Positions 25,097 to 31,022 of a stretch of 64,000 nt of DNA are shown piece by piece. The DNA lies in assembly GCF_024978135.1 (NCBI RefSeq), contig NZ_JANTEZ010000001.1, positions 1 to 64,000 of the forward strand. Reading direction: 5' to 3'. Each line of letters begins with the position of its first letter. Position 1 is the first letter of the stretch. The notes under the pieces are model-generated. The model was given only the letters and a program-made list of their open reading frames with translations. It had not been told where the DNA came from and ran no database searches. The position numbers and the translations under genes are program-made. The DNA is from Herbiconiux gentiana (GTDB taxonomy: Bacteria > Actinomycetota > Actinomycetes > Actinomycetales > Microbacteriaceae).

Positions 25097-25311
25097 GTCG
25101 TCGGGGGCGCGACGGCGAGCGGTCTTCCGTTTCCGTGTCATAATTGATATGAAGACCCGTTCCTGTGCACGGTTGCAGCGCTCCCCGAGGCTGCGCGAAT
25201 CCGGCACTTGACATGGGTCTTAGTACTGTCCAAAAACATCTTCACGCAGTGGGCTCTCCGCCCGGAGCCACGAGCTCGATCCGCCCGCCGCGTGGCGTGA
25301 AAGGTGAACTA

Positions 25312-26637
<1,326 letters not shown>

Positions 26638-26641
26638 GCCG

Positions 26642-27934
26642 GTGACCGCCCGCACCACGGCCGCCGTCCTCGTCGGACGGGCCGTCCGGGTCGCCGCGCG
26701 CCTGCGTGGCGGCGGCTCGGCCATCCCCGGCAACATCGCCCTCCGCATCGACCCCGACTTCCTCGAGCGCACCATCGCGGCCATCCCCGACGGCGTGGTC
26801 GCGGTGTCGGGTTCGAACGGCAAGTCCACCACCACGAACATGCTGGCGGCGATCATCCGGGCCCACGGCCTGAAGGTCTTCACCAACCCCTCGGGCGGCA
26901 ACCTGCCCCAGGGCATCGCGTCGGCGCTGCTCTCCGAGGTCTCGCTGGGCGGGCGGCTCGACGCCGACATCGCCATCCTCGAGGTCGACGAGGGCTACGG
27001 CACCCGCCTCGCCGAGCTGCTGAAGCCGAAGACGGTGCTGCTGCTGAACATCCAGATCGACCAGCTGAACCGCTACCACGAGCCCGATCGCGTCGCCGCG
27101 ATGCTGGCGCGGGTGGCGGCGACGTCGACCGAGGGGCTGATCCTCAACCGGGAGGACAACTTCCTGGTCGACCTCGACACGCGCATCCCCGCGTACTCCG
27201 GTCGCGCGGTGTCGTTCTTCGGCGGTGTGCCCGAGCTCGTCGAGCCCGCCGGCCACGGTGTCGCCTCGGCCGACCGCTTCGGCGACGTCGGTGCGAAGCC
27301 CGGGTCGCGCCCGGCCGCGGTCGAGGTGGTGGCCCTCACCGGCAACCGTGCGACCCTGGCCATCGAGCCGGACACGCGGATCGAGGTCAAGCTCCCCTCC
27401 CGCGGCCTGCACTACGCGCTCGACGCGGCCGGTGCCGCGGCGACCGCCCGCAGCGTGCTCGGCGACCGCTTCCGCCCGGAGCTGGTGAGCCAGGCGCTCG
27501 ACTCGCTCGCCACCGTGTATGGGCGCGGCGAGCTGCTCGTCGTCGACGGCGAGCAGATCGAGATCATCATGATGAAGAACCCGGCGAGCCTCCAGCTCAA
27601 CCTCGATTCGCTCGAGTCGGCGCCCGAGCAGGTCTTCCTCGCGGTCGACGAGGGGACCCCCGACCCGTCGTGGATCTGGGACATCGACTTCTCGGCCCTC
27701 GACCACGTCGACGGCATCACCGGATCGAAGGCCTGGCAGTTCGCCACGCGTTTCGGCTACCTCGACATCCCCGTCGGCTCGGTCGACCTCGACGTGCGCG
27801 CGGCGCTCAAGGCGTTCCTGGCGCTCCCGAAGCCGGCCACCGGACACAAGGTGATGATCCTGAACTACGAGCAGATGATGGGCATCCGCAAGATCCTGGG
27901 CTTCAAGGAGCTCGAGGGCGGGGGAGCGGCATGA
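26642..27934 (+). CDS. murT: MurT-like Mur ligase family protein without zinc ribbon
   Basis: This 430-residue protein matches MurT, the ATP-dependent half of lipid II isoglutaminyl synthase, which phosphorylates the alpha-carboxylate of D-Glu in lipid II. The P-loop SGSNGKST has Lys61, the Mur-ligase central block LLLNIQIDQLNRY follows, and the C-terminal MurT domain has KNPASLQLNL and DPSWIWDIDF (about 341-350). The ribbon with two CxxC pairs seen in Staphylococcus MurT is absent; the stretch between NREDNFLV and the GLHYALDAAGA block contains no cysteine. The GTG start lies 4 nt after the sigA stop. Its TGA overlaps the GatD-like ATG (ATGA), so the two are coupled and probably form a complex. 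Confidence 0.88.
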   Translation: MTARTTAAVLVGRAVRVAARLRGGGSAIPGNIALRIDPDFLERTIAAIPDGVVAVSGSNGKSTTTNMLAAIIRAHGLKVFTNPSGGNLPQGIASALLSEVSLGGRLDADIAILEVDEGYGTRLAELLKPKTVLLLNIQIDQLNRYHEPDRVAAMLARVAATSTEGLILNREDNFLVDLDTRIPAYSGRAVSFFGGVPELVEPAGHGVASADRFGDVGAKPGSRPAAVEVVALTGNRATLAIEPDTRIEVKLPSRGLHYALDAAGAAATARSVLGDRFRPELVSQALDSLATVYGRGELLVVDGEQIEIIMMKNPASLQLNLDSLESAPEQVFLAVDEGTPDPSWIWDIDFSALDHVDGITGSKAWQFATRFGYLDIPVGSVDLDVRAALKAFLALPKPATGHKVMILNYEQMMGIRKILGFKELEGGGAA

Positions 27935-28710
27935 CCGCGGCGACACCGAAGGGGGCCTCGAGAGGCGCTCTCCGCATCCTGCACCTCTTCCCCCGCCTCC
28001 TCGGCCTGAACGGCGAGAGCGGCAACGTCGAGATCCTCCGTCTGCGGTCCGAGCGGCGGGGTCTCCCCGTCGAGGTGCTGAGCTACGACGGGCCCGACGA
28101 CGCGGCGGTGCGCGCCCGGTTCGACGACGCCGACCTGGTGTTCATCGGCAGCGGCCCCGTGTCGGCCGAGCTGATCGCGCATCCGCTCGTCACCGCCGTG
28201 GCCGGCGACCTGAGGGCGCTGGCCGCCGACGGCCGGCCGTTCCTCGCGGTGGGCGCCGGGTTCCAGCTGCTCGGGCAGACGGTCACGCTCGAATCGGGCG
28301 AGGTGCTCGAAGGCGCCTCCCTGTTCCCCGTCGCCACCCGGCACGGGGGCACCCGTGTAGTGGGCGACTTCGTGCTCGACTCGCCGCGCATCGGCCCGAT
28401 CGTGGGCTTCGAGAACCGTGGATCCTTCGTCGACGTCGGGCCGCACGGCACGCTCGGTCGCGTCGTCTACGGTCGCGGCAACTCCGAGACCCCGGGCGAG
28501 GAGGGCTTCTGGGAGGACAACCTCCTCGGCACCCACATGCACGGGCCGCTGCTCGCGAACAACCCGGCCCTCGCCGACTCGCTGCTCGACACCGCGCGCC
28601 TTCGTCGCGGCCTCGAGTACACCGACCCGGCGCCGGAGTCGCTCCGCCTCGTCGACGAGAGTGCCCGCCAGTCCCGCGCCACGATCGCGGCGGCCCCCCT
28701 CTCGGAGTAG
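27931..28710 (+). CDS. gatD: GatD-like type 1 glutamine amidotransferase homologue lacking the nucleophile Cys
   Basis: This 259-residue protein aligns through its length with GatD, the glutaminase half of MurT/GatD: LGLNGESGNVEILRLRSERR at the start, DLVFIGSG near 69-75, FQLLG after the elbow, IGPIVGFENRG near 154-164, and NLLGTHMHGPLL with His204 at the position of the catalytic His. The nucleophile elbow, normally x-C-G/A-G-[YF]-Q-x-L-G, reads VGAGFQLLG, with Gly108 (codon GGC at 28252-28254) in place of Cys. There is no cysteine anywhere in the protein. Glutamine hydrolysis should be impossible; see the findings. It starts by ATGA overlap with murT and converges with parE. Confidence 0.88.
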   Translation: MTAATPKGASRGALRILHLFPRLLGLNGESGNVEILRLRSERRGLPVEVLSYDGPDDAAVRARFDDADLVFIGSGPVSAELIAHPLVTAVAGDLRALAADGRPFLAVGAGFQLLGQTVTLESGEVLEGASLFPVATRHGGTRVVGDFVLDSPRIGPIVGFENRGSFVDVGPHGTLGRVVYGRGNSETPGEEGFWEDNLLGTHMHGPLLANNPALADSLLDTARLRRGLEYTDPAPESLRLVDESARQSRATIAAAPLSE

Positions 28711-28730: not shown

Positions 28731-30818
<2,088 letters not shown>

Positions 30819-31022
30819 CGGGTCTCCTTCTGGGGGTCGCGGAGCCGGACCGGCATCCTCGTCAAGGGTAATCGCTGGCGAGGCGCGCCCGGCCGCGCCA
30901 CACCCGACGCGCGACCGGTCGGTACGCGCAGAGCGAAACACGGTGCATTGGGGCCGACCCCGCAGGGAACAGTGCTTTGATTGCAGATAACCCGATCCGC
31001 CCGAGCAGCTTAGGAGCACGAT

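Follow-up and report, generated by a model that had tools for sequence, protein, structure and literature searches.

A MurT/GatD-like gene pair without a glutaminase cysteine, a candidate ligase for group B peptidoglycan in Microbacteriaceae

The gene pair between sigA and parE

We examined a gene pair in a 64,000-nucleotide stretch of Herbiconiux gentiana DNA (NZ_JANTEZ010000001.1, positions 1 to 64,000; this whole stretch is called the window), which an initial annotation had described as a MurT/GatD-like pair stripped of its glutaminase. The first gene encodes a MurT-like Mur ligase of 430 residues (26642..27934, forward strand, GTG start) and the second a GatD-like glutaminase-fold subunit without nucleophile, 259 residues long (27931..28710, forward strand); both were identified by sequence, Pfam and AlphaFold2 model, and we write MurT′ and GatD′ for them and for their Cys-less counterparts elsewhere. 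The two open reading frames share the ATGA at 27931-27934, confirming the overlap first described. In Pfam, MurT′ matches Mur_ligase_M and MurT_C and GatD′ matches GATase_3, all above the curated cut-offs, while scores against the NCBIfam equivalog models stay far under theirs, reaching at best 113.5 bits for MurT′ (cut-off 800) and 130.1 bits for GatD′ (cut-off 450). The slot is marked by the C-terminus of sigA, the principal sigma factor (25165..26637, forward strand; the listed start is mechanical and the true start may lie downstream), and its far border is a parE/gyrB-type topoisomerase subunit gene convergent with gatD′ (28731..31019, reverse strand; named by eye, start mechanical). MurT_C, the window's GatD and the MurT profile each find one match in the window's genome, and the pair is the sole MurT/GatD found there. 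The nearest named kin by sequence is Herbiconiux sp. nzgw89 (L169; L numbers denote loci and G numbers genomes), whose MurT is 88% identical by BLAST and 90% in alignment and whose parE, also convergent, is 90% identical to that of the window.

Alignment to S. aureus GatD sets the window's LAVGAGFQLLG against tICGGYQFLG and places Gly108 (codon 28252..28254, forward strand) opposite C94; with 0 cysteines counted in GatD′, both the glycine at the catalytic position and the absence of any cysteine are confirmed. Retention of the fold holds as well, since the AlphaFold2 model (mean predicted local distance difference test score, pLDDT, 93.6) matches GatD chains at Foldseek ranks 1-9, including 6gs2_A at 1.9 Å with template-modelling (TM) scores of 0.82/0.86. 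Eight positions, Tyr27, Gly74, Asp77, Gln80, Cys108, Gln112, Gly165 and Tyr202, are invariant in the 65 Cys-bearing GatD rows with a letter there and variable or lost in the 124 Cys-less rows; Gln112 is still present in the window's GatD′. The residues lost alongside the cysteine presumably line the glutamine pocket. Among the matches listed, a scope that holds for all counts of named loci below, the nucleophile position in 52 named loci and the window is G in 44, A in 7, S in 1 and H in 1. The ratio of nonsynonymous to synonymous substitution rates (dN/dS) of gatD′ is 0.21-0.46 between the window and three relatives. The C94G and C94S variants of S. aureus GatD abolished activity in vitro (PMC6113224, PMC6085368; papers cited by PMC number are drawn on in excerpt). 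Taken at its active site, MurT′/GatD′ is almost certainly not a glutamine-dependent amidase. The partner His204, also cited initially, is indeed present in the window but is not diagnostic, occurring in 74 of 119 Cys-less rows versus all Cys-bearing rows with a letter there; as it is not kept across the Cys-less clade, we rejected its retention as a sign of GatD function.

MurT′ keeps GSNGKST, PSGGN, EVDEG, KNPAS and DPSWIWDIDF, and with them the P-loop (residues 57-63, 26810..26830, forward strand, by alignment) and the DxSWIWDxDF region that had been noted. The row alignment conserves Lys61, Asn87, Glu114, Asp116, Glu117, Arg144, Arg295, Asn313 and Asp341, residues of adenosine triphosphate (ATP) and acyl-phosphate chemistry; the P-loop Lys (K61), acceptor-loop Asn (N87) and acidic metal site (E114/D116/E117) of the MurT/GatD synthase are thus all present, and Asp341 lies near S. 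aureus D349. Foldseek searches with the AlphaFold2 model (mean pLDDT 88.9) returned MurT chains at ranks 1-13 as the best PDB matches, with MurC-MurF ranked below them, and dN/dS of murT′ is 0.18-0.23 against the same three relatives. Having 0 cysteines, MurT′ lacks the CxxC pairs, as first stated; the absence is not diagnostic, however, as CxxC is also missing from the matched region in 33 of 47 out-of-family MurT proteins (from whole open frames in 29 of 47) whose paired GatD, wherever read, keeps its cysteine, and we therefore rejected CxxC loss as a mark of new function. The CxxC tetrad is reported from some Actinobacteria (PMC6085368).

A change that the initial annotation overlooked lies in the nucleotide pocket, where Tyr258 (27413..27415, forward strand) and Asp261 (27422..27424, forward strand) replace, by alignment, the first and second of two Asn that contact adenine in MurT (PMC6085368, PMC6113224). 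This pair is N270/N273 in S. pneumoniae and N267 and, by residue count, N264 in S. aureus (alignment-mapped). In 54 named MurT′ and the window, positions 258/261 read YD in 52 and FD in 3. The S. aureus MurT variant N267Y is inactive (PMC6113224); a direct match of this variant to Tyr258 was rejected by residue count, N267 aligning with Asp261 and N264 with Tyr258. Since changes at C94 and N267 kill the S. aureus enzyme, the lineage naturally differs at two activity-abolishing sites. The Cys-less row group used for residue conservation was chosen by His257 and Asp261, and the 100% conservation of these two is therefore by construction. Five fast-evolving slot rows from small genomes (L041, L357, L359, L365, L366) retain Asn at position 261, four of them with a Cys-less GatD and L357 with none read; the change at the adenine site may have followed loss of the cysteine. 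In the Cys-bearing row L345 the residue aligned at position 261 is Asp.

Cysteine loss across the family and exchange with a CofE-like gene

We read 120 loci of the family, of which five (L311, L312, L328, L361, L380) repeat a place, and took a row as beside sigA when a sigA end lay within ~4 kb of DNA examined. A sigA end accompanies 84 rows, and the cysteine occurs in 0 of the 83 that could be scored at the nucleophile position; none of the 23 Cys-bearing family rows (20 places) lies beside a sigA end, and four hits of a looser Cys pattern were discounted as chance. The initial annotation had suggested looking for the cysteine in close relatives, and none of the related slot pairs carries it. 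Beyond this family, 47 loci were taken from elsewhere in the order; GatD was read in 46 of them, and all 46 keep the cysteine (45 by alignment, L278 by eye), a comparison scored by family and not by wall type. As judged from sequence, Gly108 is a clade-wide loss and no local mutation, because the cysteine is absent from every scored sigA-adjacent family row.

Four genomes (G054, G124, G066, G163) hold both kinds of pair, a Cys-bearing one with an NxxN MurT away from sigA and a Cys-less one with an HYxxD MurT at sigA. The cleanest is G163 (10 contigs, 100% complete); the other three are drafts of ~90-290 contigs, and contamination is therefore possible in them. In a MurT tree of 78 rows, a branch with support 100/100 separates 41 Cys-less rows from all others, and the family's Cys-bearing rows are intermixed with rows from other families. 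Left out of this tree were the five repeats, 14 odd rows (five Asn-keeping slot rows, five Cys-bearing, four others) and two off-slot Cys-less rows; the Cys-less rows were thinned to 41, every second out-of-family row was kept, and 4 rows stand for the diverged type. A quick tree with 16 non-repeat rows restored kept all 49 Cys-less rows together (Shimodaira-Hasegawa-like approximate likelihood-ratio test 100). The pair is nonetheless not a family-wide trait, and other genomes carry CofE-like genes, a strongly diverged pair, a Cys-bearing pair elsewhere, or none of these. In the family MurT profile search, the best 8 first-look candidates were scored in nearly all genomes. Weak MurT matches (~1e-11 to 1e-14; e.g. 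G020, G049, G089, G119, G174) were assigned to other Mur ligases with their sequences unread, and GatD matches at an expectation value (E) of 1e-8 to 1e-3 over part of the profile were counted as other amidotransferases. Absences by PF08353 were set aside as evidence, and the GatD profile used in their place, because that model misses the G142 pair (MurT profile E 9.6e-162).

In many pair-less genomes a CofE-like gene lies directly after sigA, and two of its proteins that were tested score 30.0 and 45.6 bits against PF01996 (F420 ligase; gathering cut-off 25). Of 199 family genomes searched with the CofE-like profile, 30 give a match and 27 a strong one (E below 1e-100); these 27 contain no GatD beyond weak partial matches (20 + 7 checked by GatD profile), an absence on which the MurT profile agrees, weak hits near 1e-11 aside. 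The gene directly follows sigA in 23 of the 27; in G020 an ectB-like gene stands between them, and three carriers have no sigA end in the examined DNA, that of G094 lying on another contig. Three of the 27 (G044, G094, G156) are 82-90% complete. A scan of named loci gave this distribution: of 80 sigA loci, three were too short, and the 77 readable ones hold MurT′ in 62, a CofE-like gene in 12 and a strongly diverged pair in 3, never two of these. The scan requires the sigA end to be coded in one way, loci with <800 nucleotides after sigA were assigned to MurT′ by rule, and the named loci overlap the family-genome set in species, so that the two are not independent. In three Pseudoclavibacter loci ~600-700 nucleotides separate sigA from MurT′, and in L211 an ectB-like gene fills that space.

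Named Cryobacterium, Salinibacterium and Frigoribacterium each include loci of both types, and nine genus codes (g7, g9, g12, g57, g74, g76, g79, g84, g85) likewise contain a MurT′ pair as well as a strong CofE-like match. Since the types differ within genera, the ligase appears to have switched repeatedly; the starred branches of a parE tree force only one change. The enzyme FPGS is a Mur ligase superfamily member. CofE, an amino-acid ligase, uses guanosine triphosphate (GTP) to activate a carboxylate as an acyl phosphate and joins it to an amino acid; FPGS is its non-homologous counterpart for folate (PMC10861534). Because the CofE-like gene takes the same slot and its strong matches never co-occur with the pair, we read the exchange as one enzyme having displaced another that does a similar job. 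A CofD-family match is absent in 16 of the 27 CofE-like genomes, which therefore have no known F420 route. CofD is only partly informative as a marker, with 10 of 14 control genomes matching, E. coli included, and for this reason the matches in the other 11 may be relatives with another role.

Further genes share the slot. An ATP-grasp gene (PF14397 for the one tested) lies convergent after the CofE-like gene in 10 of 11 loci with enough DNA (L155, L164, L168, L182, L192, L198, L204, L211, L215, L217), and no ATP-grasp match was found in 62 MurT′ loci, 38 of them covered as far as parE. Among loci covered that far, alanine-racemase-like genes occur between ligase and parE in 7 of 38 MurT′ and 4 of 9 CofE-like loci, and an ectB-like gene adjoins two named slots, L139 and L211. 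These racemase-like and ectB-like neighbours fit a need for D-diamino acids and are far from universal.

A candidate ligase for the group B cross-bridge

Group B walls are cross-linked through the D-Glu alpha-carboxylate and not through residue 3, and Schleifer and Kandler reportedly described this carboxylate as used for the bridge. Group B1 walls carry glycine on it, and in B2 walls a diamino acid sits directly on D-Glu. The published wall types of the few carriers looked up are in keeping with this chemistry. Rhodoluna lacicola (1,430,433 bp genome, equal in length to G010 with Cys-less pair L047) has a B2beta wall with Gly-D-Glu and D-Ala-D-Dab, the Gly-D-Glu peptide being called characteristic of the B-type (PMC4156110); Clavibacter michiganensis (L186) is B2gamma (PMC5358740), as is Herbiconiux, with D- and L-2,4-diaminobutyrate (DAB; PMC10011130). 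Lacisediminihabitans, the genus with CofE-like locus L192, is B1alpha (PMC7033078).

On these grounds we consider it probable, with appreciable room for doubt, that MurT′/GatD′ acts as a D-Glu alpha-carboxyl:amino-acid ligase that builds the cross-bridge of group B walls. The complex would descend from the lipid II D-Glu amidotransferase and would no longer use glutamine. MurT′ would phosphorylate the alpha-carboxylate of the stem-peptide D-Glu and join the activated residue to the amine of an amino acid, forming the amide bond that defines group B peptidoglycan, and GatD′ would have a structural role, closing the active site or aiding the docking of the amine. Lipid II is suggested as substrate by the descent of MurT′ from a lipid II amidating enzyme and an amino acid as nucleophile by the exchange with the CofE-like gene. 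The amine would belong to a D-diamino acid, and the wall type of the nearest genus points to D-2,4-diaminobutyrate in this Herbiconiux-like organism. A group B ligase had already been proposed in the initial annotation. Its premises of a lost glutaminase and kept acyl-phosphate residues withstood the two refuting checks that were run, one for the cysteine in close relatives and one for its loss in other families of the order, and CxxC and His204 drop out as markers while the nucleotide pocket proves to be changed; replacement of the pair by a CofE-like gene at the same chromosomal slot is a line of support that the proposal did not have.

Several observations weigh against this assignment. The residues kept in MurT′ are also compatible with the use of free ammonia, the MurT′ carriers with wall chemistry looked up are few, the three named above, and an EctB search of the window's genome returned nothing above cut-off. 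The CofE assignment is remote, the CofE-like profile finding no PDB match. Exclusion is incomplete among weaker matches, as a CofE-like match of 3.1e-37 co-occurs with MurT′ in G147 and G053 and G123 combine a match of ~1e-45 with a very diverged pair, and the sigA slot also accommodates a third type of pair, diverged and with His in place of the Cys. No sigA end lies in the DNA examined around thirteen Cys-less rows; the second Cys-less pairs of G159 and G122 belong to this group. Profile searches gave no convincing pair or CofE-like match in at least nine genomes of the family (G019, G022, G049, G051, G062, G119, G121, G146, G174; G022 and G146 are 87% complete), some genera showed only the Cys-bearing pair, and in six genomes with that pair (G003, G014, G016, G024, G047, G059) sigA is followed by parE. 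Group B walls in genomes with neither system, or with only the Cys-bearing pair, would therefore call for another enzyme.

Four other explanations were weighed against these data. The pair could instead add a neutral amino acid such as glycine, either as a side group or as the first residue of the bridge, and leave the D-diamino acid to another enzyme. The glycine of B1 walls and the B1alpha type of Lacisediminihabitans would suit such an enzyme, and the ATP-grasp gene beside the CofE-like gene could be the second ligase; its absence from the 62 MurT′ loci, 38 of them covered as far as parE, and the direct attachment of the diamino acid in B2 walls make this unlikely. An ammonia-dependent amidase, in which MurT′ amidates the D-Glu alpha-carboxylate with free ammonia and GatD′ is a leftover scaffold, would account for the retained catalytic residues, fold, gene pair and overlap. 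It is slightly less likely still, given that C94G and C94S abolish S. aureus activity in vitro, that the replacing gene belongs to an amino-acid ligase family, that four genomes with a Cys-bearing pair retain the Cys-less pair too, and that group B walls need this carboxylate for the bridge.

Service in another pathway (one making a secondary wall polymer or a cofactor of the gamma-glutamyl type), with the slot merely tolerant of insertions, would explain why some genomes have neither system and why other genes follow sigA in a few, such as a binding-protein-like gene (by eye) in G049, G119 and G174. The descent of MurT from a lipid II amidating enzyme, the many CofE-like genomes without a CofD-family match and hence without a known F420 route, and the racemase-like and ectB-like genes sharing some slots render it improbable. 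That the pair is a degenerate remnant without catalytic role is hardly credible: GatD′ diverges fast and has lost its active site, but purifying selection (dN/dS), retention of the pair in the 0.9 Mb genome G015 and nearly invariant catalytic residues in MurT′ all argue for function.

A broader and more tentative proposal, which we hold to be possible but somewhat doubtful, extends the ligase assignment to the slot itself, which would house interchangeable, partly unrelated D-diamino acid:D-Glu ligases, namely MurT′/GatD′, the CofE-like gene with its ATP-grasp gene, and the diverged Cys-to-His pair, with MurT′ perhaps using GTP and GatD′ acting as an amine-docking pseudoenzyme. The possible nucleotide switch is suggested by the Tyr/Asp change only.

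The MurC-MurF enzymes form amide bonds through an acyl phosphate and take the amine of an amino acid or a dipeptide, and they act on uridine diphosphate-linked precursors without a GatD subunit. The closest known system is the MurT/GatD lipid II isoglutaminyl synthase of S. aureus and S. pneumoniae (PDB 6gs2, 6h5e, 6fqb), which shares the gene pair and both folds; unlike it, MurT′/GatD′ has no glutaminase Cys, has lost other GatD residues, carries Tyr/Asp in place of the adenine Asn pair, lies mostly beside sigA and falls far under the equivalog cut-offs. The CofE/FbiB F420-0:gamma-glutamyl ligase (PF01996) is a proposed functional analogue, a remote homologue of which occupies the MurT′/GatD′ slot; CofE/FbiB is not homologous to Mur-type ligases, to judge from the comparison of FPGS with CofE (PMC10861534), and the Microbacteriaceae forms are remote from solved CofE. 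Archaeal MurT-like proteins resemble MurT′ in family and are assigned no function in the excerpt of PMC11915815, which describes them from species without a GatD homologue, whereas an inactive GatD is kept here. An excerpt of PMC6085368 calls the MurT/GatD operon universal in Actinobacteria and Chloroflexi and leaves loss there unmentioned. In the open-licence literature we found no paper that connects group B walls with MurT/GatD or CofE-like genes, no description of a Cys-less GatD in this family and no report of an enzyme for the defining group B bond. If the ligase assignment is correct, the pair would be a candidate for the missing enzyme of the family's unusual cross-link and a case of a glutamine amidotransferase turned amino-acid ligase. 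A candidate ligase and an unrelated gene replacing it at one locus would make the question of that bond testable in tractable species, and could provide genome markers for group B wall chemistry. Genome editing is reported for Rhodoluna lacicola (PMC11577799).

Racemase-like neighbours and diverged relatives

In the window we found no racemase-like, ectB-like or ATP-grasp gene. Elsewhere in its genome, two tandem alanine racemase genes lie near glmS (L290:7496-10623), both with Lys and Tyr motifs by eye, and one of them might supply the diamino acid. A pattern search revealed adjacent racemase-like genes with complementary motifs downstream of the slot ligase in L204, L215, L216, L173 and L198, one gene having the Lys motif and lacking the VSYGxTY-type Tyr motif and the other the reverse; the two are fused in L198, and L173 is cut by the DNA end. 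Judging by these motifs, the two proteins might pair as a heterodimer with a single shared active site.

A very diverged MurT/GatD-like pair was observed at L044, L045, L052-L055, L057-L062, L151, L181 and L213, beside sigA in most. Its GatD, where read, has His at the Cys position (FTHNA), and its MurT retains both Asn, reads KGLVGV where KNPA would stand and carries CxxC in most. Another CofE-like homologue and a further diverged MurT/GatD-like pair (ESNN, VVFGTS) share one neighbourhood at L046, L056 and L087 (G053, G123).

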